DNA of 64,000 bases, taken from Polyangia bacterium (lineage in GTDB: Bacteria > Myxococcota_A > Polyangia > Fen-1088). The stretch lies in NCBI GenBank assembly GCA_036268875.1, contig DATATI010000082.1, positions 1-64,000 on the forward strand. Direction: 5' to 3'. How positions within the stretch are numbered: position 1 is the stretch's first letter; each line of letters starts with the position of its first letter. The notes below the pieces were generated by a model that ran no database searches, was not told the DNA's origin, and saw only the letters and a program-made list of their open reading frames with translations. The translations under genes were made by a program, and so were the position numbers. Of this stretch, positions 2,326 through 64,000 are shown piece after piece.

Positions 2326-2817
2326 CTATTTTGGATCGGTCGTTTTGTGGTTCATGGCGGCATGACACGGGCACATCGACATCATCGACGCGTCTCTGGT
2401 CGATGCCGCACCATGATTGTGGTCGTGCGCGGGCGCCGCCGGGGTCGCCGCTGCTGGTTCGGGCAAGGTCATTGCCGGCGTTGACGTTGCGGCGTTACCG
2501 GCCACCGGCTCGATCGTTTGCTGGGTCGCGCTGGCGGCGGCCTTCTCAGCATCACGCTCCCGGCGGGCTTTCGCTTCGGCGAATCCGAACCGTCGTTCGA
2601 CGTTCGCGGGGTCGGACTCTGGGCTCACCGGTGGACCAACCACGGCCGGGGTGTTGCTTCCGCGTTCGCTGGCCGCCGCGGCGGCGTTCGGCAGCCGACG
2701 ATTGGGTTGCGGTCCGGTCGCGCACGAAGCGGACCAGATCAAAAGCGGCGCCGCCCAACGAAGCACCGTCGCGCGCTGCCAGGGACCGTTCATTCTCTTC
2801 ACAGATTGTCTCAGCAT
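2326..2817 (-). CDS. Probable lipoprotein, unknown function
   Basis: This 163-residue protein has a basic N terminus, a hydrophobic stretch and then SASC at residues 28-31, a weak lipobox because the -3 residue is Ser. The middle is Ala/Pro-rich and charged, and the C terminus has HDHNH and a CPCH motif that could bind metal. GAGGAGG seven bases before the ATG supports the start. It lies 17 bases after the preceding gene and is probably in its operon. No family was recognised. Confidence 0.6.
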   Translation of the reverse strand: MLRQSVKRMNGPWQRATVLRWAAPLLIWSASCATGPQPNRRLPNAAAAASERGSNTPAVVGPPVSPESDPANVERRFGFAEAKARRERDAEKAAASATQQTIEPVAGNAATSTPAMTLPEPAAATPAAPAHDHNHGAASTRDASMMSMCPCHAAMNHKTTDPK

Positions 2818-2834
2818 GGGATTCCTCCTCGGAG

Positions 2835-3194
2835 CTAGGCCGCAACGAACAGTCTGGCGATCAGAGCTTCGGCGGTGCGACGGAACGCTTCCGCGTCCAG
2901 AGTGGTTCGCCTGGCCTCATGCCTCACCTTTTCGACCCACGCCGAGGCGACCGCCGAGTCGCGACCGAGCACGGCGACCACATGGCCACGCACATCGTCG
3001 TCGAACAACGCCACGAATTTTTGCATCGCGAACTGTTGGCCGGAAAGCGTCAGCGTCGGCATCGATGAAACGATCTCGCGCGCGACGGTCAGTCGCAAGG
3101 CGACGGCGCCGCTCCTTGACGCGGCTTGCGCTGTTCGCCGGTCACCGGACTTATTCGCTGAATCGTGGCTCGGGGTGTGGGTCAGTCGGTGCAT
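2835..3194 (-). CDS. Hypothetical protein of the sigma-54 island
   Basis: The gene encodes 119 residues. The start at 3194 is supported by GGAGG six bases upstream; the frame runs on upstream to 3302 but that part is low complexity. The C-terminal 80 residues look folded and mostly helical (TLSGQQFAMQKFVALFDDDV, then AVASAWVEKVRHEARRTTLD). No family was recognised. A sigma-54-type box at 3227-3242 precedes it, so it probably belongs to the same regulon as its neighbours and leads a two-gene operon. Confidence 0.65.
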   Translation of the reverse strand: MHRLTHTPSHDSANKSGDRRTAQAASRSGAVALRLTVAREIVSSMPTLTLSGQQFAMQKFVALFDDDVRGHVVAVLGRDSAVASAWVEKVRHEARRTTLDAEAFRRTAEALIARLFVAA

Positions 3195-3226
3195 GGCGGA
3201 CCTCCGTTGGTTCGTTCTCGGAGCAT

Positions 3227-3242
3227 TGCAACGAATGTGCCC
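3227..3242 (-). promoter_or_regulatory. Sigma-54 promoter
   Basis: The minus strand reads GGGCACATTCGTTGCA, with GGCAC and TTGCA at exact -24/-12 spacing. The predicted transcript start is about 22 bases before the ATG at 3194 and leaves room for GGAGG. Confidence 0.6.
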
Positions 3243-3362
3243 GCCCGATCTCCCCATCCTTGGCGGCGGCGGCGGCGGCCAAGGCGCAGATTCTGCCGAC
3301 ACCGGCGGATCGGACGTATTCCCTGCGCCCCTCGATCGCGACCGGCCGCACGCACGGCAACC

Positions 3363-4970
3363 TTAGCCGCGTCGACGCTCGGACGCGGGAACGATCCCGG
3401 CGTGGCGGAGGGCGATCATGGCTTGGACCAGACAGGACCCGAAGTCTTCCGTGGTCTCGACGCTGACGTGAACAGCAGCCTCGGTCGCAAGCACGGGTTC
3501 GAAATCCGATCGCACCAATTCCAGTTCGCGCTCGCGCGCGTCGGACTCGCTGGCGCCTTGTTCGCGCCCGCGCAGGCGTTTCCGCAAGGCCGTCTCGTCG
3601 GAGCAGACGCTCTCGATCAGCACAAACGTCGCCGCCGGCGTCGATGCGATGGCCGCCGCGCGGGCCCGGGAATCACGGCGGGCAAACGTGGCGTCGAGGA
3701 TCACCCCGCGCCCGGAGTTGACGATCACCTCGGCGCTCCGAAACATCTCGCCGTAGGTCTCCCGGGTTCGATCGGGTTCATAAAGGCTGGTCGGGCCGCG
3801 TTCGGTGGGCGGCAGATCGGCAAGGGCCTTCCGCACCCGATCGGAACTGATCACCGGAGCCGCCAGCACTTCGCCCAGGGCACGAGCCAGCACGCTCTTT
3901 CCTGAACCCGGCAACCCGTTCATCACGATGATGAACGGCCGATCGAGCGGCTTTCCCTCCTCGGCCCGGGCCAAGGCAAACTGGGCCCGCGCTTCTTCAC
4001 GCTTGCCTTGCCTTTGCATCAGCGCGAGATCACCGTCGCTGGCGATCAGGGCCGCCACTTTGCCGCGAACCCAGGCGCGGTAGGAAAGGTAGAAATCCAG
4101 GGCGCCGTAGAGATCGAAGTCGTGGGCCGCCTCGGCGAAACGGGCGATGAAACCGGCGGCCAGATCGGGACGGTGCGCGGCCTCGAGCTCCATGGCCAGG
4201 AACGCCGCATCACCCGCCGGATCACCGCAACGAAATCGCTGGTTGAATTCGATGCAGTCGATAATCACCGGATGTTCGACCCCGGACTGGTCGGATTCGA
4301 AGAACACGTGCTCAAGGCGCAGATCGCCATGTCCATCGACGGCCAGGCGTTCGCGCTTCGAAAAAAGCGCCGCGCGGGAACGCAAGAACTGACGGGCCCG
4401 ATCGCGAACCTCGTCGAGGGTCTGCTGGTCCACGAGATCACCGACGAATTGTTGCGCATCGGCGAAGTTCTCCTCCAGGTTTGCGGACAGCGCCGACAAC
4501 GAGGCGGCCCCGGGCACGGACCGCGCGGTCCGAAAAAATGCCGCCAGGTGCACCGCCAGCGCGCGGAGGCGGCTCGCATCCAGGCGATCGGCGAGCAACA
4601 ACTGGTCGGCGTTGATCTCGTCCGGCAGGCGACGCATTCGCACCACCCAGTCGACCGCCGGACCGCTTTCGCTGGCGCCGATCAGATAGTGGTGTCCGTC
4701 GTGAAGAACGGGGAATACGCCGCGGTAAACGTCCGGGGCAAGCCGCCGGTTCAGCTGGACCTCCGCCTGGCAATCGAGACGGCGGGCCTGGGGCTCGCGG
4801 AAATCCAGAAAGCCAAGGTTCACGGGCCGCTTCAATTTCCACACCTCCCGGTCGGCGATGAAGACCCAGGATGAGTGGGTCACGCGCAGCTCGATGGATG
4901 AGGGGTGCGGCTCGGGATAGGCCTCCGGCCGCAAAAGATCGGAAACCAGCTCCGGCAGCCCACCAGCCAT
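3363..4970 (-). CDS. APH-like kinase / P-loop ATPase fusion
   Basis: This 535-residue protein joins an aminoglycoside-phosphotransferase-like kinase fold to a zeta-toxin-like P-loop domain. The N-terminal part (about 30-310) has a VDGHGDLRLEHVF catalytic loop and VIIDCIEFN, equivalent to HxDxxxxN and the metal-binding Asp. The C-terminal part (about 345-510) has Walker A GLPGSGKS and a DATF motif. Proteins with this architecture are annotated as bifunctional aminoglycoside phosphotransferase/ATP-binding protein; Rv2004c of the M. tuberculosis DosR regulon is of this type. The substrate is unknown and nothing here implies drug resistance. It starts 9 bases after the CBS gene ends, so the two are one operon. 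Confidence 0.88.
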   Translation of the reverse strand: MAGGLPELVSDLLRPEAYPEPHPSSIELRVTHSSWVFIADREVWKLKRPVNLGFLDFREPQARRLDCQAEVQLNRRLAPDVYRGVFPVLHDGHHYLIGASESGPAVDWVVRMRRLPDEINADQLLLADRLDASRLRALAVHLAAFFRTARSVPGAASLSALSANLEENFADAQQFVGDLVDQQTLDEVRDRARQFLRSRAALFSKRERLAVDGHGDLRLEHVFFESDQSGVEHPVIIDCIEFNQRFRCGDPAGDAAFLAMELEAAHRPDLAAGFIARFAEAAHDFDLYGALDFYLSYRAWVRGKVAALIASDGDLALMQRQGKREEARAQFALARAEEGKPLDRPFIIVMNGLPGSGKSVLARALGEVLAAPVISSDRVRKALADLPPTERGPTSLYEPDRTRETYGEMFRSAEVIVNSGRGVILDATFARRDSRARAAAIASTPAATFVLIESVCSDETALRKRLRGREQGASESDARERELELVRSDFEPVLATEAAVHVSVETTEDFGSCLVQAMIALRHAGIVPASERRRG

Positions 4971-4979
4971 GGATTTTCC

Positions 4980-5414
4980 TCAAGTGCCGTCTTGTCGTTC
5001 GAAATAGAGGCGAGCGAAGCGAACGAATTCGCTCTCGGTGACGATGCCAATGACCTTGCCGTCGTCAAGCACGGGCAAGCAACCAATCCGATGTTTCTCC
5101 ATCAACCCGGCGACGTCGGCGGCCGGCGCTTCCGGCCACGTCGACAGCACGTCCTTCTCCATCAGCAACTCGACCGGAATCCGGCGAGCGACGTCGCGCA
5201 AGGTCTCGTGGTCGGGATCCCCGTGGCTGACCCAGGCGCCCACGATCGTTCGGTGGGTGACAAGACCGACCAGCTGTTCATCGCCGTCGATCACTGGCAG
5301 GTGGCGAATGCTGCCTTTTTCCACCATCAGCGTCCGCGCCAGATCGAGCGAGTCGCCGACCTGCAGAACCTCGACCGGACTGGACATCACGTGGCGAACG
5401 AGTGTTTTGGCCAT
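4980..5414 (-). CDS. Tandem CBS-domain protein
   Basis: The 144-residue protein is almost entirely two CBS domains (about 8-60 and 80-135). Each domain has the typical H(L/I)PV or CLPV-D-G-(K/Q)-(L/V)-(V/I)-G-(L/I)-V-T end. Such stand-alone pairs usually bind adenine nucleotides and sense energy charge. The closest analogue by size is hypoxic-response protein Hrp1 of mycobacteria. The start at 5414 (MAKTLVRHVM) is preferred over an upstream Met because the domain begins there and a G-rich tract precedes it. It heads the operon with the APH fusion. Confidence 0.9.
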   Translation of the reverse strand: MAKTLVRHVMSSPVEVLQVGDSLDLARTLMVEKGSIRHLPVIDGDEQLVGLVTHRTIVGAWVSHGDPDHETLRDVARRIPVELLMEKDVLSTWPEAPAADVAGLMEKHRIGCLPVLDDGKVIGIVTESEFVRFARLYFERQDGT

Positions 5415-5426
5415 TCCCCCCGTCAG

Positions 5427-5442
5427 TGCACAATTGACGCCA
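5427..5442 (-). promoter_or_regulatory. Sigma-54-like box 28 bases before ATG
   Basis: The minus strand reads TGGCGTCAATTGTGCA. The GG/GC pair and spacing are exact, with three mismatches in between. The box starts exactly 28 bases upstream of the ATG at 5414, so the predicted transcript has only about two untranslated bases. Confidence 0.5.
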
Positions 5443-5508
5443 AGCGAGTCGAACCGGCGCACAGAAGTCGCCGCCTTGTTCGGCGAGCCGCCTCAGGGCA
5501 TAGTAGAA

Positions 5509-5907
5509 ATGGAGAAAATGGCCGCGCCCGAGGTTTCCAATAGCGACCGTGGCCGCCGGGTCTTGATCGTCGATGACAATGTCGCCCTGGCGGAAAACAT
5601 CGCCGAGATCTTGGCGCTGACCGGCTATATCGGCGAGATCGCGGCCAGCGCCGAAGAAGCCATTCCCCGCGCTTTGAGCGGCAACATCACCTTCATCATC
5701 ACCGACTTCCGATTGCCCGGGCTCAATGGCGTCCAGTTGATCCAACGCCTGCGCGGGCAGGGACGTGATTTCCACGCCGTCCTCATCAGCGCGTATTCGG
5801 ACGAAGGCACCCTCAGCGCCGCACGTGACGCCGGCGTCGACGATTTCATCCCCAAGCCCCTCGATTTTGCCCGGCTGACAGAGACGCTGGGCCGCCTGGC
5901 TTCCTAG
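5509..5907 (+). CDS. Stand-alone receiver domain protein
   Basis: This 132-residue protein is a single response-regulator receiver with no output domain. Acidic residues DD are near 22-23, the phospho-acceptor Asp is in the FIITDFRLPG segment, and the conserved Lys is in FIPKPLDF. It is probably a phosphorelay intermediate or acts by protein contact. ATGs at 5509 and 5518 are both possible. It stands alone, divergent from the CBS operon, and has no sigma-54 box that I could find. Confidence 0.88.
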   Translation: MEKMAAPEVSNSDRGRRVLIVDDNVALAENIAEILALTGYIGEIAASAEEAIPRALSGNITFIITDFRLPGLNGVQLIQRLRGQGRDFHAVLISAYSDEGTLSAARDAGVDDFIPKPLDFARLTETLGRLAS

Positions 5908-6016
5908 TCAGCCGATTTGGGTACGCCGATCGCTGGGTTTGCGTCATCGCTCCCGTCCGACGCAGCCTTTGCGCCGGCGAAGCGCCTTCGGCTGGCGGGC
6001 GTTGAATTGGCGGTGT

Positions 6017-6032
6017 TGGCGCGCCGGTTGCT
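6017..6032 (+). promoter_or_regulatory. Sigma-54 promoter 28 bases before ATG
   Basis: The sequence TGGCGCGCCGGTTGCT matches the -24/-12 consensus closely. It begins 28 bases before the ATG at 6045, predicting an almost leaderless transcript. Confidence 0.6.
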
Positions 6033-6044
6033 GTTGTCTGCCGT

Positions 6045-6743
6045 ATGCACCCACGACAGAGCCAGATTCCTTTCACCAGCCAGCAAGCGCTCGCTTGTTT
6101 GACCGCACTTTTCTTTTTCGGCTGCGGCACGCCGTCTCAGAACGTCCATCCCGACGATATGAGCGCCGAGCGCCATCGGCAGGAAGCGGCCAACGACGAG
6201 ATAGCCGCCAGCCGTTCCTCAGAGCGATACAACCCGTACGCCACCCGGCCAAGCCCCTTTCGCGAGCTGAATCCGACGGGCACCGGTGATCCGCTGGACT
6301 CTGTGTCTGTCTACAACCCCACGATTGGCAACGTCGCCGCCGCCGAGAGACAGCGCCAGCACGCGCGCCAGCATCGCGAGGCGGCGCAGTCCCTGGAGCG
6401 TTTCGAGGAAAAAGAGTGCAGGGGCATCGCGCCCGAGGTTCGGGCCAGCTGCCCGCTGCTCGGCCCGGCGGTTGAACTGCGCAATATCGACGGAGGGGTC
6501 CGGGTGCGTTTTCCTTCCGAGCTCGACATCGACAAGATCGTCGCGCTGATGCGCTGCCATTTCGCTTTTGCCCAGACCCGCGGCTTCGAAGGCGCCGCCG
6601 GCTGTCCGCTGTACATGCGCGGCATCGAGATTCGCCGGGCGCCCGAATGGCGTGCGGTGGACATCGTCAGCGCGGACCGGTTCGTGGTGCCCGAGATCCG
6701 CGCCCGGGCGCGCGAACAAGTGCTGCTCCTGGGTGGAAGATAG
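6045..6743 (+). CDS. Lipoprotein, unknown function
   Basis: The 232-residue protein has a signal peptide ending in a lipobox (LFFFGC, Cys27). A charged region with coiled-coil tendency follows (about 75-125, Arg/Gln/Glu/Ala-rich), then a compact C-terminal domain with four cysteines (ECRGIAPEVRASCPLLG, MRCHF, GCPLYMRG). No family was recognised. The start is fixed by the lipobox distance and by the sigma-54 box just upstream; no Shine-Dalgarno sequence is evident. Confidence 0.75.
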   Translation: MHPRQSQIPFTSQQALACLTALFFFGCGTPSQNVHPDDMSAERHRQEAANDEIAASRSSERYNPYATRPSPFRELNPTGTGDPLDSVSVYNPTIGNVAAAERQRQHARQHREAAQSLERFEEKECRGIAPEVRASCPLLGPAVELRNIDGGVRVRFPSELDIDKIVALMRCHFAFAQTRGFEGAAGCPLYMRGIEIRRAPEWRAVDIVSADRFVVPEIRARAREQVLLLGGR

Positions 6744-6863
6744 CCCCCACGTCGACGGCCCGATTCGCGCAAAAGCTGCTGGCCTGCGACTGCGCAACGA
6801 AAGCTTTTCGCGCCCCAGTGACCACATCGCGCAGAATCCCGCCACTTTCGCCCGGCTGTTCTT

Positions 6864-6879
6864 TGGAACACACGTTGCT
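6864..6879 (+). promoter_or_regulatory. Sigma-54-like box 28 bases before ATG
   Basis: The sequence TGGAACACACGTTGCT has exact GG/GC spacing and a perfect TTGCT. It begins 28 bases before the ATG at 6892. Confidence 0.5.
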
Positions 6880-12402: not shown

Positions 12403-12688
12403 CCCCCAAATCACCGTTGCGCCCCACTGACGAATGCCTTGCCGACGCACAATCGACGCCGCCAGGCGATGCGACGAAATTCCTGCGCGTCTTCCAGGCC
12501 GCCGGAAGCACCTTCGCCCTCGGCCGCCTCCTCGGCGTCGCGCTCGAGTGACCGGGCAAAGCGGCTCGTCGCTTGCCCCTCCGCAAGAGGTGCGTGGGGA
12601 CGGGTGGTGCCGGCAATCTTTGCGGCTGGCGCTCACGGCTGGCGGGCGGTTCGGCACGGCTTTCTCAGCGGCCGACCTTTTTCGCCCT

Positions 12689-12704
12689 TGGCACTCGGAG
12701 TGCA
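12689..12704 (+). promoter_or_regulatory. Sigma-54 promoter 28 bases before ATG
   Basis: The sequence TGGCACTCGGAGTGCA has a perfect TGGCAC and TGCA. It begins 28 bases before the ATG at 12717. No ribosome site fits between box and start, as expected for a leaderless transcript. Confidence 0.6.
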
Positions 12705-17746: not shown

Positions 17747-17871
17747 CTCTCGCTGTCGCCGGCCCGCCAGCGCCCTTGGACGTTATGCGCAAGGCTTGCG
17801 TGTGCTGCCGGTCCTGGCGTGAGACCTACGCGAGCCGGCAGGCTAGACCAGCGAAGCATCGCCTGGCGCGC

Positions 17872-17887
17872 TGGCACGTCGCCTGCA
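17872..17887 (+). promoter_or_regulatory. Sigma-54 promoter, strong match
   Basis: The sequence TGGCACGTCGCCTGCA differs from the -24/-12 consensus at only one or two positions. It points toward the histidine kinase gene, and an ATG stands 29 bases downstream at 17901. Confidence 0.62.
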
Positions 17888-55104: not shown

Positions 55105-55377
55105 CGAGAACTCCATTCGAGCGTTGTCATTTGTTCCCAAGCCTTTCGTCGCTGGCCTTCGTGTGGCGACGCCCAACGCAATTGGCGTGCCGCCCATTGC
55201 TGCCGCCGATTGGCGCGCAATCGTTGATAAGACCGGCAAATCTGCGCGTCGATCGGGGCTTGGGAATGTCTTTGGCGAGGCGCGAACGGTCCGCGAACAG
55301 TCGCTCACATAGGCGACTTCGATTTGCTTCTGCCACCCCGGATAAGGCATAAGCGTGCCCGAGGTGCGCAGAGAGCA

Positions 55378-58300
55378 ATGACGCGTTTGACTGCTGCGGG
55401 CGGCCGGCCGGTCGTCCAGCACGGGACGGTCATTGGCGGGAGGTATCGGGTCGAGGCTCCGCTTGGCGCGGGCGGAATGTCGTCGGTCTTCGCGGGACAT
55501 GACACCGTTCTGGATCGTCCCGTCGCGCTCAAGATCCTCAACCGCCCGGCTCACAGCGATGACCGCGCCACGCAGCGGTTACTGTGGGAGGCCAAGGTCA
55601 CGGCGCGCATCATCCACGCTGCCTGCGTGCGCGTTTTTGACGGCGGCGTCGATCCAGAGGTGGGCGCCTTCCTGGTGATGGAGCGCCTCGACGGTGAGGA
55701 CCTGCGGCGCTTCCTTCACCAGCACGGTCCTTTGCCGGTATCACTTGCCCTTGGGATGTTCGAGCAGATCGGCGCGATCGTGCACGCGGTTCACCAGGCG
55801 GGCGTCGTCCATCGCGATCTGAAGCCGGGGAACGTCTTCGTGCTCCGCGGCCATCCCTTCGGGGCCGTCCCTCGCATCAAGCTGCTCGACTTCGGGATCG
55901 CCAAGTCAGACGACAGTGGCGAGGCGCAACTGACCGAACCGGGTGAATTCCTCGGAACGCTGGCCTATGCGGCACCCGAGCGCTGGCTCTCCCCGACGGC
56001 GCCCGACGCGCGCACGGACATCTACGCCCTGGGCGCGCTGCTGTACGAGATGCTGAGTGGGAACCCACCGTTCCGCGCCGAGACGAAAGCCGCCTTGCGC
56101 CTCGCGGTTCTCAACGATCGGCCGCCGCCGCTTCTCGCCCCACGCAATGATCTCCCCGCTTGGCTGTCCGGCGCCATCGAACGGACACTTTGCAAGTCAC
56201 CGGCCGAGCGATTCGCGGACGTGCCGTCTCTGATGGGCGCACTCGGCCTCGACCTTGTGGCGGAGCCGACGCCGACGCTGCGCACCGAACAAGCTTTCCG
56301 CGGGACGGAACGCTTCCGCGTCGAACGCTGCCTTTCTCGCGGTGCGGACACCGAAGTCTATGCGGTGCTCGATCTCGAACGAAACCAGACGGTCGCCCTC
56401 AAGCGCCTGGCCAACCCACGCGGCGAGGCCTTCCTGCGCCTCAAGCGCGAGTTCAGGACCGTCGCCGACATCCGGCACCCGAACCTCGTGCGCCTCGGTG
56501 CACTGTGGAAGGAACGCGACGATCTCTTGATGACCATGGAGTTCGTCGATGGCGTGCCTTTGCTCGATCACGTCGCCGGCTCGGAAGAACGGCTGCGGTC
56601 GTGTCTCGGCCAGCTTGTCAGCGCGCTGCAGGCTTTGCACGCGCGGGGCCTCGTGCATCGGGACGTCAAGCTCGAGAACATCATCGTCGATCGATCGGGG
56701 CGTCTGGTTCTGCTCGACCATGGTCTGGCGATGCGCTGGCAAGAAACCGGCGCGCCCGTCACTGGAACGGCGGCGTACCTGGCTCCCGAGGTTCTCGAGG
56801 GCCGAAGTGGCCCCGCGGGCGATCTCTATGCGGTGGGCGTCATCCTCCGTGCCGCGCTCACGGGAAAACCGCCCCGAACTCTCGACGGCCCGCTCGACCT
56901 GGCGGGCGCCGAGATAGCCATCGCGGGCCCCGACGATCTGCGCGCGCTCTGCATGCACCTGCACGCGGCCGATCCGGCGGCCCGTCCGTCCGCCGCCGAA
57001 ATCCTCGACGCGCTTGCCGACCGCCCTGCTGGTGAGGCGACGCGTTCGTCTGCGGCGCTCGCCCCCGGTGAAACGTTCGTCGGCCGCGCCGAGGCGTTGG
57101 CCTTTCTCGACCGAGCGATCGCCGCTGCCGCCGACGGCACCCCGCACGCGGTGTGGATCGAAGGCGAAAGTGGCATCGGAAAATCCGCCTTGCTGGATCA
57201 CCTGCGGCGACAGCTCGCCCAGCGTCCAGACACGCTCGTGCTGACGGGACGCGCACGCCACGGCGACGCGGTGCCGTTTCCGGCGCTGGACGAGGTGATC
57301 GACGATCTCTGCGCGTACCTGATGCGCCTGCCGCCGGCAGTCGCCGAGGTGTTGATGCCCAAGCGCGCTGCCCACATCGCGCGCCTCTTCCCCGGCCTGG
57401 CCGCGCTGCCGGCAATCGCCCGCGATCTCCGGAACGTCGAGGCGAAAGAGGCGACCTCTCAGATGCGTCGGCTGGCCTTCGACGGATTGCGAGAGCTATT
57501 CAAACGCATCACCGACAGCCGCTCGGTCGTGGTGATCCTGGACGACCTGCAGTGGATCGATGCTGACAGCCGCGCGTTGTTGGCGCACCTGCTCGACGGC
57601 TCGGGCGGACCACCGCTGCTGGTGCTCGGAGGCGTACGCAGTACCACCGTCAGTCCCGAGCTGCGCAAGCTGGCCGCCACGTTGGGAACACGCGTCCAGC
57701 GAATCGCCCTGGGCGCGCTGTCGCACGAGGAATCGTGTGCCCTTTTGCACGCTCGCTGGCGAGGACAGCAGAAGCCGGACGATAAGGCCATGGCTCGCTT
57801 GGCCAACGAAGGACATGGGATCCCGTTCTTTCTCGAAGTGCTGGCGTCGTCGGCATCAGTCGATCATGCCGGGCAGGGATGCGGACTTGACCAGGTGCTG
57901 GCCAATCGTGTGGATGCCCTGCCCGCGAAGACGCGCCTGACGTTGGAGATGGTCTGTGTCGCCTCGCGCCCCCTTCCCGTCGAGACCGTGCTGGCGGCGG
58001 CCCAGCTCGGCGATGTCCACGAGCTCGATCCGCTGCTGGCGGAACCGTTCCTGCGATCGGTGCGCTCTGATCGGCGGTCGGTCCTGGAGCCTTACCACGA
58101 CAAGATCCGGGACGCCGTCCGCGCCGCGCTGCCCGAAGCGGCTGCCCTTGATCACCACCGCGCCCTGGCCGCCGCCCTCGAAAGTGGATCCCAGGACGAC
58201 CCGGAACACCTCATCGAACACCTGGCGGCCAGCGGCGAGGCCGTGCGGGCCACGAAAATCGCCCTCGCTGCGGCCGAACTGGCCAGCGATCAGCTGGCGT

Positions 58301-59901
58301 TCGATCGCGCGGCGGCTCTCTTCGCGGTGGCGCTGGAGCACGGGGTCTTCTCCAAAGGAGAGCGCCTGGCGCTGCAGCGTCGGCGCGCCCGCGCCCTGCA
58401 GCTGGCTTATCGACGTCGTGAATGTGGCGAGATTCTCCTGCGCGCCGCCGAGGATGCTCCCGACGACGAGGCGGCGGCCCGGCTGCACACCGAGGCAGGC
58501 GTTCATCTTCTCTACAGCGGCGATGTTCGACGCGGGCTGGAGGCCCTTCAACCGGCCCTGTCTCGCGCCGGATTACGGGTGCCGACCAGCCTCGAAGAGA
58601 CGATCGCTGCCACGACCAAGGCCATGGGTGCCATCGCCAGCGGCGGCCTCGCCGCCCGGCAACCGGAAGGAACGCCGTCACAAGAATCGCTTGATCGAGT
58701 GGAGCTGTGCTTGGTGCTGTCGCAGGGATTGGCCCACATCGATCTGCGGGTGCTGCCATTTGCTTGCGAAGGCCTGCTGGCGGCGCTGGAAGCCGGCGAC
58801 GCGTGCTGCCTGCAGCGAGCCGCCGCCCTCTTCGTCATCAACAGCGTCGAGTACCTTCCCAATCCACTGGTCGCGCCGGTGCTCGCGCTCTGTCGCCGAC
58901 TGACCGAAGCCGACCCAACCCCTTATGCGCGCGCGTCGCTGGACGCCGCAATCGCGGAGAACGCGCATTTCGAGGGTGACTTCCTCGAGGCGGAGGCGGC
59001 ATTCGAGCGCGCCGAACGAGCGCTGCTGGACAGCTGCCCGGAAGCGACGCGTGAACTGGCGACGGTGCGCGATCTGGCTGTTTTTGTGCAGTACGCGCAG
59101 AAGGGCGACTTTGCGACGCAACTTGATCGTACCCAACGCTGGCTTGCCGAGGCCGACGCCGCCCAGGACGTCTATCACGCCAGCATGCTTCGCGTGGCGC
59201 ATGCCATCGTCTGGATTGCTCACGATCAACCCGCGCGCGCCCGAGCCGAGCTTCGGCGCGCTCAAGAAGAGTGGCTCGGTGAGGCGGGCGTCTTGGAGGT
59301 CGGCGCGGCGCTGTACCACGACATCATCGACCGCTATGAAGAAAAGGATCTGGCGTCCGATCACGAAACCAGCGCGCGCTCGGCCCTGCTGCGAAGTCCT
59401 GCCGCCGACACACCATTCCTGGGTGGATATCTCCGACTGCAGCAGGCATGGAAAGAACTTCGCGCGCTGGCCGCCGGGACGTCCGACGCGCGCGCGGGCG
59501 CCGCGCTGGTCACCGAGATCGTTTCTGGCCTGCGCGCCAATGGGCTCACGATCTGGTCGGCGGTGGCCGACGTCCTGGAAGCAAACCTTGCGTTCTTGAA
59601 CGGCGACCGCGAACCCGCTGTACGCGGCCTGGATTCCGCCGAGACCAAGTTCAAGCGCGCCGGGATGGCCTGCCTGGCAGCCTGCGCGCGCCGGCGGCGC
59701 GGAGAATTTCTCGAGGGCGAGTTGGGCTCACGCTTGCGCGCGGAAGCCGACGCTGAGCTGCATCGCCTTGGTGTGGCGAACATCGAACGCTGGACGCGGG
59801 CTTACTGGTCAATGTTCGACGCAGAGGCCGCCCGCGCGCGAACCGCCAACGGCGCCCGTGACGAGCCGCCCCTCACGACGGCGGGACCTTCAGGCGCTTG
59901 A
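55378..59901 (+). CDS. Tandem kinase - AAA/STAND NTPase - helical repeat protein
   Basis: The gene encodes 1507 residues. Kinase 1 (20-290) is complete: LGAGGMSSVFAG, Lys52, HRDLKPGN (145-152), DFG (171-173). Kinase 2 (313-550) keeps Lys342 and HRDVKLEN (427-434) but has DHG at 447-449 in place of DFG and a glycine loop without GxGxxG, so it is probably a pseudokinase. An AAA/STAND-like NTPase (566-830) follows, with Walker A GESGIGKS (596-603) and Walker B VVVILDDLQW (717-726). The remaining 650 residues are TPR-like helices. PknK/AfsK-style kinases have one kinase domain in this layout. It converges on, and overlaps by 29 bases, a sigma-54 activator gene, its likely partner. Confidence 0.9.
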   Translation: MTRLTAAGGRPVVQHGTVIGGRYRVEAPLGAGGMSSVFAGHDTVLDRPVALKILNRPAHSDDRATQRLLWEAKVTARIIHAACVRVFDGGVDPEVGAFLVMERLDGEDLRRFLHQHGPLPVSLALGMFEQIGAIVHAVHQAGVVHRDLKPGNVFVLRGHPFGAVPRIKLLDFGIAKSDDSGEAQLTEPGEFLGTLAYAAPERWLSPTAPDARTDIYALGALLYEMLSGNPPFRAETKAALRLAVLNDRPPPLLAPRNDLPAWLSGAIERTLCKSPAERFADVPSLMGALGLDLVAEPTPTLRTEQAFRGTERFRVERCLSRGADTEVYAVLDLERNQTVALKRLANPRGEAFLRLKREFRTVADIRHPNLVRLGALWKERDDLLMTMEFVDGVPLLDHVAGSEERLRSCLGQLVSALQALHARGLVHRDVKLENIIVDRSGRLVLLDHGLAMRWQETGAPVTGTAAYLAPEVLEGRSGPAGDLYAVGVILRAALTGKPPRTLDGPLDLAGAEIAIAGPDDLRALCMHLHAADPAARPSAAEILDALADRPAGEATRSSAALAPGETFVGRAEALAFLDRAIAAAADGTPHAVWIEGESGIGKSALLDHLRRQLAQRPDTLVLTGRARHGDAVPFPALDEVIDDLCAYLMRLPPAVAEVLMPKRAAHIARLFPGLAALPAIARDLRNVEAKEATSQMRRLAFDGLRELFKRITDSRSVVVILDDLQWIDADSRALLAHLLDGSGGPPLLVLGGVRSTTVSPELRKLAATLGTRVQRIALGALSHEESCALLHARWRGQQKPDDKAMARLANEGHGIPFFLEVLASSASVDHAGQGCGLDQVLANRVDALPAKTRLTLEMVCVASRPLPVETVLAAAQLGDVHELDPLLAEPFLRSVRSDRRSVLEPYHDKIRDAVRAALPEAAALDHHRALAAALESGSQDDPEHLIEHLAASGEAVRATKIALAAAELASDQLAFDRAAALFAVALEHGVFSKGERLALQRRRARALQLAYRRRECGEILLRAAEDAPDDEAAARLHTEAGVHLLYSGDVRRGLEALQPALSRAGLRVPTSLEETIAATTKAMGAIASGGLAARQPEGTPSQESLDRVELCLVLSQGLAHIDLRVLPFACEGLLAALEAGDACCLQRAAALFVINSVEYLPNPLVAPVLALCRRLTEADPTPYARASLDAAIAENAHFEGDFLEAEAAFERAERALLDSCPEATRELATVRDLAVFVQYAQKGDFATQLDRTQRWLAEADAAQDVYHASMLRVAHAIVWIAHDQPARARAELRRAQEEWLGEAGVLEVGAALYHDIIDRYEEKDLASDHETSARSALLRSPAADTPFLGGYLRLQQAWKELRALAAGTSDARAGAALVTEIVSGLRANGLTIWSAVADVLEANLAFLNGDREPAVRGLDSAETKFKRAGMACLAACARRRRGEFLEGELGSRLRAEADAELHRLGVANIERWTRAYWSMFDAEAARARTANGARDEPPLTTAGPSGA

Positions 59902-61492
59902 GCTGCAGCTTGAGGGCGCGCGGCGAGACGCGCAGGCGCTGCGCCGCCACCAAGAAATCGCCCGCGCTGGCGGCCAGCGCCGATCTGATCTCGTCGGCCG
60001 GAAGTCGATCGGCGGCGGGCGCCAGCGTGCCGTTTTCCAGGCGCTTGTAAAGATAGCTCTTCGAAACGCCGAGGCGCCGCGCCGCCCGCTCACGGCGGAA
60101 GCCCTCGAATTGCAGAGCCGCCAGGATGTCCGCGTCGCTGATCTCCCGCGTGGAACGCTCGGGGGTTGCGGGCGCTGCCGCTTCAGCCCGGGTCACCCAG
60201 GTGCCTGGCCCGCCCAGGATGTCCTTCAGGTCGTCGCCAATCCGGGCCCGCGCGCGGCCCCGGTTCTCCACTGCGAATTTGAGGGCGACGTTCGCCAGTT
60301 CGCGAACGTTGCCCGGCCAGTCGTGCCGGGCCAGCGCGGCGACGTAGGCGGCCGGCACGAAAGGCTCAGCATCGGCAGACGCCGGCTCAAGGCGATGGCT
60401 TTCCTTCATCGTCGCCAGCCGCTCACGTAGAAAATGGTAGAAGAGCAGCCCGATATCGTCGCGCCTGGCCCTCAGCGGCGGAACGTGAATCTCGTAGGAA
60501 AAGCGGCGAAGAAGCGGCTCACGAAACTCCCGGCGCGCCACCGCCGATTCAAGGTCCGAGTCGGTGGCCGCCACCAGACGAACGTCCACCTGGCGGGTGC
60601 TCCCGCCCAGCGGCTGGATCACGCCTTCTTGCACGGCGCGCAGAAGGAGGGCCTGCACGTCGAAGGACACGTCCCCGATCTCGTCGAGAAACAACGTGCC
60701 GCCACTGGCCTCGGCGAAGTAACCCTTGCGCTCCTCGAAAGCGCCGGTGAACGCGCCACGCCGGTGCCCAAACAGCTCCGAGGCGGCCATCGATGACGGA
60801 ACGCCCGCGACATTGACCGCGACGTAGCTGGCATCCGCGCGCTTGCTGAGCTTGTGAATGGCGGCGGCCACAAGCTCTTTGCCCACGCCGGTCGCCCCCC
60901 GCAGAAGAACCGGGACATCGAGGTCGGCCACGCGGTGGATCTGCTGTCGCAGCCTGCGCATGACGGCACTCTCGCCGATGAGGCCGGGAATGGCCGGCGC
61001 CGGTTCGGAGTCGTCGTTCCAACCGATCCACAACGCCAGATCGCGGCCGCTCAGGACCACGACGCCCGCCTCCAACTCGGCCGCGCCGATGCGACGTTCG
61101 CCGTGCAATGGAATACCGTCTATCTCGACGACGGGCGAAGCGGCCGCGAATGAAAAGACCAAGCCGTCGCGCTCGCGCGTGATCAGCAGAGGGCTGCGCG
61201 TCACGCGCGTGCTCGCGAGCGGTCCCGTCAGCTCGCCGGTTGGCCGGCGAAACGTCGGAATCATCCGACCGATGGCCAGGGCCCGCCCAACCTCCGCCGG
61301 CTCGTCATCGAAAAGGACGGCAAAGTCCCCGACGCGCGACGCAAGCGGGTGGGCAAGCACCCGCGCTCCGATGAAACGATGGCCTTCTTCGTGGGTGCCG
61401 GTCGGAGTGGAAAGTGTGGCCTCGTTTTGCATTGGGGCGACCGAATATATCGTCTGCGCCCCGTCCTCCCAAGCGCCCGCCGTCCGGTCCAT
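59873..61492 (-). CDS. FHA-like sigma-54 activator with two Fis-type HTH units
   Basis: The gene encodes 539 residues. An FHA-like N-terminal region (about 65-160) is degenerate and lacks the GR..S..H pattern. The AAA+ domain (170-395) has Walker A GATGVGKE (199-206), a GAFTGA loop and [11 protein letters not shown]. Two helix-turn-helix units follow: ILAALQFEGFRRERAARRLG / VSKSYLYKRL, and EIRSALAASAGDFLVAAQRL / RVSPRALKLQLKRL. One HTH is usual. The start overlaps the caspase stop (TGATG), so it is the last gene of the hydrolase-caspase operon. Confidence 0.9.
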   Translation of the reverse strand: MDRTAGAWEDGAQTIYSVAPMQNEATLSTPTGTHEEGHRFIGARVLAHPLASRVGDFAVLFDDEPAEVGRALAIGRMIPTFRRPTGELTGPLASTRVTRSPLLITRERDGLVFSFAAASPVVEIDGIPLHGERRIGAAELEAGVVVLSGRDLALWIGWNDDSEPAPAIPGLIGESAVMRRLRQQIHRVADLDVPVLLRGATGVGKELVAAAIHKLSKRADASYVAVNVAGVPSSMAASELFGHRRGAFTGAFEERKGYFAEASGGTLFLDEIGDVSFDVQALLLRAVQEGVIQPLGGSTRQVDVRLVAATDSDLESAVARREFREPLLRRFSYEIHVPPLRARRDDIGLLFYHFLRERLATMKESHRLEPASADAEPFVPAAYVAALARHDWPGNVRELANVALKFAVENRGRARARIGDDLKDILGGPGTWVTRAEAAAPATPERSTREISDADILAALQFEGFRRERAARRLGVSKSYLYKRLENGTLAPAADRLPADEIRSALAASAGDFLVAAQRLRVSPRALKLQLKRLKVPPS

Positions 61493-62250
61493 CACGCCGC
61501 CTTCCGTCGTGGGGTTACCCGTCGAGAATGACGCGCGGATCGACGAGCGGGCGCAGTGTCGAGCAGATCGAAACCGGTCCACGAAAAGGTGGCAGCGACG
61601 GAACGTGGGTAGGGTCGTTGCAAGTTGATGGCACCGGTCAGCCGATCCAGCGAGGGCGCTTTGCCCGTTTGGGCGAGGGCCCGCCGAAACGCCGCGCTGA
61701 ACGAGCCGTCGAAGGTCTCGGACCAGGCGCCCGCCGCCGCCAGCACGAACACCTCGGCGCCGGACCCACTGACTCCGCGCAGGAACTCATCGGCGATCAC
61801 CCCACCCGCCGCGCAACAGTCGACGATCAGCCACAGCTTTCCAGGTCGGCGCTGGCGCCTCAGGGCAAGCTCGACCAGTTCCTGAGCCCGAAGTCCGGTG
61901 GCCGCCGCAGCATCTTTGGAGAAGCCTCGGCAACACAAATAGTGGTCGCCGTCGACGACGCAGCCGTGACCGCTGAAATAGATGGCCATGGCGTCCTCTG
62001 GTTCCAGAGTGCACCCCTCCAGCCACTCGGCGAAGGCGGCGCGCAGCTCGTTGACAGTGAGGTTGGACGCGAATGGAACCACGGTATAGGCGCGCGATTT
62101 GAAGAGGCGACTCATGCGATCAAGATCGGCAGGCACGTCATCGAGATCTCTCAGAACGCCCCCCGGGTTTCCCACCCCGATCGGCACGAAAAAGCGACGG
62201 CCCGACGCCTTCGGCCGCGGCGCAGTCAAACGTTGTGGCGTCCGGGCCAT
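61492..62250 (-). CDS. Caspase-like (peptidase C14) protein
   Basis: The 252-residue protein is a caspase/metacaspase fold. An RFFVPIGVGNPGG strand opens it, catalytic His95 lies in AIYFSGHGCVVDG and the nucleophile Cys146 in LWLIVDCCAAGG. AEVFVLAAAGAWSETFDGSF follows, as in the small subunit. There is no signal peptide, and the C-terminal 20 residues are basic. It starts six bases after the alpha/beta hydrolase stop. Bacterial caspases paired with NTPases and hydrolases occur in conflict systems where proteolysis causes dormancy or death. Confidence 0.88.
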   Translation of the reverse strand: MARTPQRLTAPRPKASGRRFFVPIGVGNPGGVLRDLDDVPADLDRMSRLFKSRAYTVVPFASNLTVNELRAAFAEWLEGCTLEPEDAMAIYFSGHGCVVDGDHYLCCRGFSKDAAAATGLRAQELVELALRRQRRPGKLWLIVDCCAAGGVIADEFLRGVSGSGAEVFVLAAAGAWSETFDGSFSAAFRRALAQTGKAPSLDRLTGAINLQRPYPRSVAATFSWTGFDLLDTAPARRSARHSRRVTPRRKAA

Positions 62251-62256
62251 CGGCCT

Positions 62257-63135
62257 TCACGAACCCCACGATCGCTCGAGCGCGCCGGCGATTTCATCGC
62301 GGAGCTCGGCGTGGACCAGGTACGAGGCCAACTTGTGCGTCTCGACGAAGTGGTGCGGATCGCCGTGGCGGACTTCGACGTCGACGATGTCAGAGTGAAA
62401 GATCGGGGCCAACCGCTTGATGGGCACCGACCAGACGTCAGCGGAAGCGAAGAAGTTGCTCCAGCGGCGCACACCCGGCCAGGGCGCGCTCGGATCGCCG
62501 CTGCGGTTGAGGAACTGGCCGAGGCGTTTGAGCATCGGCTCTCGAATGAGCTGCGGCGTGGCCATGGGCGAGCCAACGGTGATGAACGTGTCGACACGAT
62601 GAGGGTGAAGGCAGAGACCTTCGTACGCGATCGTCGAGCCGAGTGAATGGCCGATAACAATCCGGGTGTCGGACGCCAGCGCCGCCTTGAAGCGCGCTTG
62701 CACCTGAAAGAAGGCGCCCTCGGGAACCGTCGGATTCGGGTTCGTGACAGGACCGTTCTGCATGTAAAGCGCCGACTCGCGCACCATGCGATTGACCAGC
62801 AGAGCGATCGGACCGACCGGCTCGCCCCACTCATCCCAGAGTGCGAGCGCGTCCGCCGCGCGGACCGTGCCGCGCAGAAGCGCGTAGTACGCTGACAGGA
62901 GATCGTCTCGCAAAGCGATTCGCTTCGGCGCGCCCGTCTCCTCTCTTCTCCGTCGGAAGAGATCGGCCCAATAGACGACGGTGACATCCTCTTCCCTGGG
63001 CAAGCGGTGCGGGTTGGCTTTCCCCCACGCGGTCTGTCTCACGCCGGCAATCATCGAACGGCACCAGGTTTTGTGAAGGAGTCTGGGATCGCGTTCGAAC
63101 ATTCGCATACCGTGGACAATGAGTATTTTCGCCAT
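62257..63135 (-). CDS. Alpha/beta hydrolase, lipase-like
   Basis: The gene encodes 292 residues starting MAKILIVHGM, the first strand and oxyanion region. Nucleophile Ser165 lies in IVIGHSLGSTIAYEG. ITVGSPMATPQLI follows, with candidate Asp in HSDIVDVEVRHGDPHHF and His in the same stretch. A long charged insertion lies between residues 35 and 115. No secretion signal is seen, so it would act inside the cell, perhaps on lipids. AAAGGA stands before the ATG. It heads the three-gene operon. Confidence 0.85.
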   Translation of the reverse strand: MAKILIVHGMRMFERDPRLLHKTWCRSMIAGVRQTAWGKANPHRLPREEDVTVVYWADLFRRRREETGAPKRIALRDDLLSAYYALLRGTVRAADALALWDEWGEPVGPIALLVNRMVRESALYMQNGPVTNPNPTVPEGAFFQVQARFKAALASDTRIVIGHSLGSTIAYEGLCLHPHRVDTFITVGSPMATPQLIREPMLKRLGQFLNRSGDPSAPWPGVRRWSNFFASADVWSVPIKRLAPIFHSDIVDVEVRHGDPHHFVETHKLASYLVHAELRDEIAGALERSWGS

Positions 63136-63163
63136 GGGCACCGTTCCTTTAACCCCTTAGCAT

Positions 63164-63179
63164 TTCAAGTCGCGCGCCA
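63164..63179 (-). promoter_or_regulatory. Possible sigma-54 promoter of the caspase operon
   Basis: The minus strand reads TGGCGCGCGACTTGAA. The -24 half is good and TTG is present, but the key GC at -12 is GA. Its position, 44 bases before the ATG, fits. An operon encoding its own sigma-54 activator would make this plausible. Confidence 0.3.
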
Positions 63180-63197
63180 ACGCAAGGGCCGCCGAAC

Positions 63198-63739
63198 GTG
63201 GGAGATGGCAAACAGAAGGCGGCGTTCGGTGGCGTCCGGACACGTCTTGACAAGGTTCGAACGACCGACTGGACCCCAGATGAGCATCCCGCCGATGCGA
63301 AGGTGCTTCCCTCGCTCCTGCGGCTGCCAGACCGAGGTCGTCCCGTGGAGATGACATTTCGGTTGGCGCCAATTTGCGCCCCAGCCGGTGCGATCGACTC
63401 CCAAGGGCTGCAAATGATCCTCGCCGTGGATCAGGTGATCGGCGCGACCGATCCAACGGTGCGCTGGGCCTGTCGTTGTTCCCCGCCGACCACCAGTGCG
63501 GCGTCCTGTCCATGGTCAACGTCGATGTCGTCGAGAACAATGCGGTTCTAATCGCCGCGTCTCTGGCGGCGACGATGCCGATGGGCGCGACGCCGACACG
63601 CGTGACGCTGGAAGGCGCGGCGGCGCACCTATCGAACCGCGGCGACGCCAACCCCCGCATTACATCGGCCTGGCGACGGGCGGTCTGCCCAACTGCTCGC
63701 CTGGCGCGCCGGCGCCAACGAGAGACGGGACGTCATTAA
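63198..63739 (+). pseudogene. Possible decayed gene in two frames
   Basis: One frame (63198-63551) has protein-like sequence (VRTTDWTPDEHPADAKVLPS, VEMTFRLAPICAPAGAIDSQ, MILAVDQVIGATDPTVRWA). A second frame continues with GLSLFPADHQCGVLSMVNVD, VVENNAVLIAASLAATMPMG and TPTRVTLEGAAAHLSNRG. The switch near 63470 suggests a frameshift. No family was recognised. Confidence 0.25.
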
Positions 63740-63936
63740 TTCAAGTTAGGCTCTGCCGCCAGCCCGGCAAATCCGCCAGCGGCGGCAGTTCGCTCCAACA
63801 GATCGTCTGCTGTCGCAGCATCGCGAGTCAGCATTCGGGCGTAAGCCCCCAGGGCGCGTCGGTGAGCGAGCAGCGCGTGGGAAGGGTTGGAAATCACGCT
63901 CAGCGACCTTCGCTGGTCGCTGGTCGCTGCGCCCAT
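63736..63936 (-). pseudogene. ECF sigma-factor remnant
   Basis: The 66-codon frame encodes LLAHRRALGAYARMLTRDAA then TADDLLERT, close to region 2 of ECF sigma factors (RLRAFAR.LT.D...ADDLVQET). The match ends there and the frame stops shortly after at AEPNLN. The -10 recognition helix and region 4 are absent. Upstream (63937-63995) AGGAAGG and an ATG at 63987 open only an eight-codon frame. Confidence 0.5.
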
Positions 63937-64000
63937 CGGCGGCCACCAGCGCTCCGGCAGTCATGACTGATCCGTCTTGCGGTTCATGAGAAACCTTCCT

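Follow-up and report, generated by a model that had tools for sequence, protein, structure and literature searches.

A lipase-like hydrolase and caspase gene pair sharing an operon with a sigma-54 activator in a Polyangia bacterium

Three closely packed genes of a Polyangia bacterium raise the question of whether two potentially lethal enzymes and a transcriptional activator constitute one cell-death or conflict system. We addressed it by comparing the locus, found in a window of 64,000 nucleotides (the whole stretch of DNA analysed here), with its relatives in other genomes.

The initial annotation described a gap of 6 bases between the first two genes, an overlap of one base between the next two and, at the 3' end, an overlap with a convergent tandem-kinase/NTPase gene. 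This layout holds in place and strand (Table 1): the hydrolase and caspase genes are separated by 6 bases, the caspase stop codon shares one base with the activator ATG (TGATG), and the ends of the activator and kinase genes overlap by 29 bases. The three products were named as a lipase-like hydrolase, a caspase and a sigma-54 activator, and the Pfam families agree in each case; the matches of all four genes are far beyond chance. Window positions 63141–64000 (the contig runs to 64092) belong to approximately 950 bases without a convincing gene, located between the hydrolase and the next upstream coding region.

Table 1. Coordinates of the genes and the candidate promoter of the locus
Feature	Coordinates	Strand	Basis
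Alpha/beta-hydrolase, cytoplasmic, lipase/phospholipase-like, 292 aa	62257..63135 (ATG 63135, stop 62257)	-	Pfam Abhydrolase_1 1.2e-7
Bare caspase-family peptidase, 252 aa, His95 and Cys146	61492..62250	-	Pfam Peptidase_C14 7.4e-10
Sigma-54 activator, 539 aa, AAA+ domain, C-terminal HTH segments	59873..61492 (ATG 61492, stop 59873)	-	Sigma54_activat 3e-56, HTH_8
Tandem Ser/Thr kinase–AAA_16 NTPase–TPR-like protein	55324..59901	+	Pfam: two Pkinase and AAA_16
Sigma-54-like promoter TTGGCGCGCGACTTGAA	63164..63180	-	Home-made weight-matrix scan

The caspase and the hydrolase

The iterated caspase profile spans residues 10–242 of the window protein, which scores 39.3 bits against Pfam Peptidase_C14 (cut-off 21.4). 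No other protein of the genome matches this family, and the caspase is free of any NTPase, WD40 or VMAP fusion. The claim that its catalytic residues are intact is borne out by an alignment of 19 paired caspases, i.e., those encoded next to a homologous hydrolase. Both catalytic positions are kept, His95 and Cys146 aligning with the GHG histidine and the D-x-C cysteine of the other 18 proteins; the caspases of L016, L077, and L102 have SHG or AHG in place of GHG. When the caspase alone served as query, a genome-wide pattern scan yielded no match, whereas one with two hydrolases recovered three loci; a PDB sequence search with the caspase returned nothing useful.

Among the hydrolase homologues, Ser164 is invariant and Asp233 and His267 are nearly so, and these residues likely form the catalytic triad, with the latter two as partners of the serine. 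The nucleophile had been recognised correctly in the initial annotation and numbered Ser165; counted from the ATG it is residue 164. Pfam PGAP1 matches all 12 of the homologues compared. A profile of these 12 proteins found the DDHD domain of Nir2 in PDB (E 1.4e-4), followed by weaker matches to GPI inositol-deacylase and other lipid enzymes. Nir2 and Nir1 were also the best structural matches (Z 10.8) of an AlphaFold model built from a four-sequence input (mean pLDDT 62), with thioesterases and lipases at most one Z unit away and hence effectively tied. The Pfam DDHD family (DDHD/PA-PLA1 phospholipase) matches neither the window hydrolase nor its homologue set, so that the likeness to Nir2 is one of remote profile and fold. 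No gating insertion was identifiable in this low-confidence model. Together, the profile and the model point to a lipid or ester as the probable substrate.

The pair in other genomes

With an iterated caspase profile, a caspase gene was found adjacent to the hydrolase gene in 20 of 31 hydrolase-homologue loci, which belong to Myxococcota, Actinomycetota, Pseudomonadota, and Cyanobacteriota. At many paired loci the two genes overlap by 4 bases, an arrangement typical of translational coupling. Two more loci (L019 and L039) have a CHAT protease as the neighbour. Caspase matches are absent at L071, L073, L022, L023, and L041–L045 of this set, and the hydrolases of the last seven are apparently solitary. 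Homologues without a partner also occur elsewhere in this phylum, as well as in Spirochaetes and Caldithrix. Since some homologues stand alone, the hydrolase fold by itself does not imply killing.

Plasmids searched with the hydrolase encode homologues at 24–38% identity, and the annotated neighbours of most annotated ones are caspase, CHAT, NACHT/WD40 or “AAA family ATPase” genes. Most of the large partner proteins contain WD40 propellers, several of them together with NTPase domains. The resemblance to NTPase-regulated conflict systems noted initially is supported in that relatives of the pair are fused to STAND/WD40 or VMAP sensors. The distances of hydrolases and caspases are strongly correlated (Mantel r 0.92, falling to 0.89 when the closest pairs are left out; p 2e-4; n = 19 pairs). 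The relatedness of the organisms adds to this value, although the members come from several phyla and largely from plasmids. From these comparisons we regard it as firm that the hydrolase and the caspase form a real, co-evolving, phylum-spanning two-gene unit.

At L104, a hydrolase of the same family as that of the window (profile A2, 7.1e-42 and 1.2e-41) adjoins a caspase-VMAP-M2 protein; this neighbourhood (2793–6109) lies on a plasmid of Streptomyces sp. NBC_01460, which also contains a second locus, of hydrolase, caspase and WD40, near a type I-E CRISPR gene (L018). Other arrangements were observed as well. At L039 (3680–6432, genome G444), the gene after the hydrolase encodes a CHAT protein that weakly matches calcineurin-like proteins and whose N-terminus resembles, by eye, an EAD1 adaptor. 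A Streptomyces canus plasmid (L072) has a protease gene near a hydrolase gene twice: in one neighbourhood a CHAT gene and an annotated alpha/beta hydrolase gene are divergent, and in the other a hydrolase of the window family is convergent with a caspase-NTPase gene.

The activator, the kinase and their linkage to the pair

Of 318 genomes searched in the class, two contain high-scoring hydrolase homologues, namely, that of the window and G008, and a search of 193 relatives gave the same two genomes. The succession of hydrolase and caspase is kept in G008, where the activator is not beside the pair. Upstream of the pair in G008 (L009, 2180–3325) are divergently transcribed genes that look by eye like those of an ECF-type sigma factor and of a Ser/Thr kinase. 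The G008 orthologue of the activator (67%) is encoded on a different contig, C595, convergent with an orthologue of the kinase as in the window and behind two genes that look envelope-type by eye. The initial description of the activator as dedicated to the hydrolase and caspase is not supported by these observations. No overlap linking the two contigs was found; the G008 genome is fragmented and 70% complete, and the contigs may be neighbours.

Among the relatives searched, close orthologues of all four genes are confined to the same two genomes, and G003, of the same genus as G008, has none of them. Such co-occurrence in two genomes, one of them 70% complete, in a family with approximately 17 others, is a suggestive, though not a strong, sign of one system. 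The kinase-type regulator itself is common, because remoter relatives of its C-terminal part are present in 69 of the 193 genomes. Paralogues of the activator in other genomes of the class adjoin other genes.

The G008 activator aligns with the window protein from Met21 onward, so that translation may begin at a codon other than the coupled ATG. Pfam FHA has no match in the window activator or in 11 relatives; an FHA motif-like pattern is seen in the alignment of the N-terminal domain, and its proposed resemblance to a degenerate FHA domain is unproven. A structure prediction for this domain was set aside as too poor (pLDDT 37). Matches of the activator to RtcR lie for the most part in the AAA domain common to both, and those of the kinase in PADLOC (PD-T4-6 and others) were read as generic kinase similarity. 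PknK-like regulators combine a kinase, a P-loop NTPase and a TPR-like region in one protein; the convergent protein has the same parts with two kinase domains, and it is a possible upstream regulator of the activator.

RpoN is encoded in the genome. The sigma-54-like site is located 29 bases upstream of the hydrolase ATG and ranks tenth among approximately 128,000 window positions in a scan with a home-made weight matrix based on the consensus; its -12 element is GA rather than GC and hence imperfect. In the same scan, the region upstream of the G008 hydrolase yielded no site of this kind, and nothing convincing was found among sigma-70-type promoters, terminators or repeats upstream of the window hydrolase. 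Other strong sigma-54-like sites in the window are at 6016–6032 (+), which precedes an ATG reading frame at 6045 by 12 bases, and at 6863–6879 (+), 12688–12704 (+), 17871–17887 (+), and 40412–40396 (-).

A proposed mechanism, its rivals and known systems

The best explanation, to which we give about an even chance, is a caspase-gated lipase death module under transcriptional control. The locus would be a stripped-down caspase-lipase effector pair of the kind found in NTPase-centred bacterial conflict systems. Here we infer a lipid substrate, gating, lethality, kinase input and self-activation of the operon. The hydrolase would most likely attack membrane phospholipids, the caspase most likely gating it by cleavage of the hydrolase or of a partner, and triggering of the pair would kill the cell or arrest its growth. 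Control would be exerted in trans, because the window caspase is bare, unlike those of most relatives, which are fused to sensor-like domains. Probably, this control is transcriptional: the co-transcribed activator would act at the sigma-54-like promoter to turn the operon on, and the convergent tandem-kinase/NTPase may steer the activator by way of its degenerate FHA-like domain. The link of the activator to the pair and the killing function are not firm. Against this explanation stand the separate contigs of the two gene pairs and the missing sigma-54-like site in G008, the solitary hydrolase homologues, the lack of recognised defence neighbours and the model in which no gating insertion was identifiable. 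More tentatively, the phylum-spanning pair may be a caspase-activated phospholipase, in which a pro-lipase becomes a membrane-destroying enzyme and the fused sensor has been replaced in this lineage by a kinase-to-sigma-54 trigger. Bacterial caspases activate gasdermins and nucleases. If the proposal is true, a pair found in several phyla, on plasmids as well as on chromosomes, would add membrane-lipid hydrolysis to these effects, and the pairing reported in 2020 would gain a mechanism. With 292 and 252 residues and no large fused parts, the window pair is a convenient minimal system for studying caspase gating of a lipase.

A possible, if rather less probable, reading is that a mobile hydrolase-caspase module came by chance to lie upstream of a resident activator-kinase pair, so that the activator shares the transcript only and controls other genes. 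The arrangement in G008, where activator and kinase stay convergent and the pair is on another contig, is as this reading would have it, and so are the other neighbours of the activator paralogues and the sporadic occurrence of the pair, which is rare in the class at high score and often plasmid-borne elsewhere. However, both pairs are present in the same two genomes and both are missing from the genus-mate G003, the unlinked G008 contigs could be neighbours, and a sigma-54-like site precedes the window hydrolase.

Adoption of the module for programmed lysis in multicellular development, with kinase–sigma-54 signalling rather than phage as the switch, seems improbable, as the very patchy distribution in the class argues against a core developmental role. 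It would account for an activator in the operon and a caspase without a fused sensor, and it is kept alive by LypABC (PMC13236601), an immunity-like system outside a defence island that was co-opted for lysis under a transcriptional regulator. It also agrees with the surroundings: defence neighbours, the presence of which the initial annotation left to be checked, were not recognised near the locus (the four genes were assessed by Pfam and other neighbours listed as reading frames). We are equally doubtful that the genes encode a metabolic esterase of the ordinary kind and its regulatory peptidase rather than a killing system. The solitary homologues are what one would expect of this reading, but the paired representatives are associated with STAND/WD40, VMAP or CHAT proteins, in many cases on plasmids.

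The preferred reading, a lipase gated by a caspase, is proposed to follow the same logic as Canu, in which a nuclease encoded together with the caspase is made as a pro-nuclease and activated by a caspase complex (PMC12799240). In both cases, a caspase is encoded together with a second, potentially lethal enzyme. The locus was rejected as a member of Canu, since the effector there is an MBL-fold nuclease, and the caspase has an Ig-like fold, whereas the partner in the window is a lipase-like alpha/beta-hydrolase. Membership of the EACC1-caspase systems (NCBIfam NF047832) was likewise rejected: the window caspase domain matches at 56 bits against a cut-off of 140, and no EACC1 partner was recognised.

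Closer likenesses are found in two groups of systems. The caspase-STAND-WD40 loci with a hydrolase on Streptomyces, Embleya, and Rhodococcus plasmids share the hydrolase family and the caspase domain, often with the 4-base overlap; their caspases are fused to WD40 and, where detected, NTPase, whereas that of the window has nothing fused. In the VMAP (vWA-MoxR) ternary systems, too, a caspase and an alpha/beta-hydrolase are encoded side by side: every VMAP protein with a caspase domain is reported to have an alpha/beta-hydrolase gene as a neighbour (Kaur et al., 2020; PMC7159879), and the alpha/beta-hydrolases of such conflict systems have been described as acting on membrane lipids (Kaur et al., 2021). 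L104 links the caspase-VMAP-M2 architecture to the window's hydrolase family. The window differs in that its caspase is bare and is followed by a sigma-54 activator; the VMAP-C profile has no match in this genome, the control genomes being equally silent, and MoxR and vWA have no Pfam match among the four locus genes, with other neighbours listed as reading frames only.

The composition was initially thought to be wholly undescribed, which is too broad a claim, as the pairing has been known since Kaur et al. (2020). No study of the caspase-lipase pair as such was found in the literature searched. What is new here is the variant, in which a caspase without fused parts and a lipase-like hydrolase share their operon with a sigma-54 activator.
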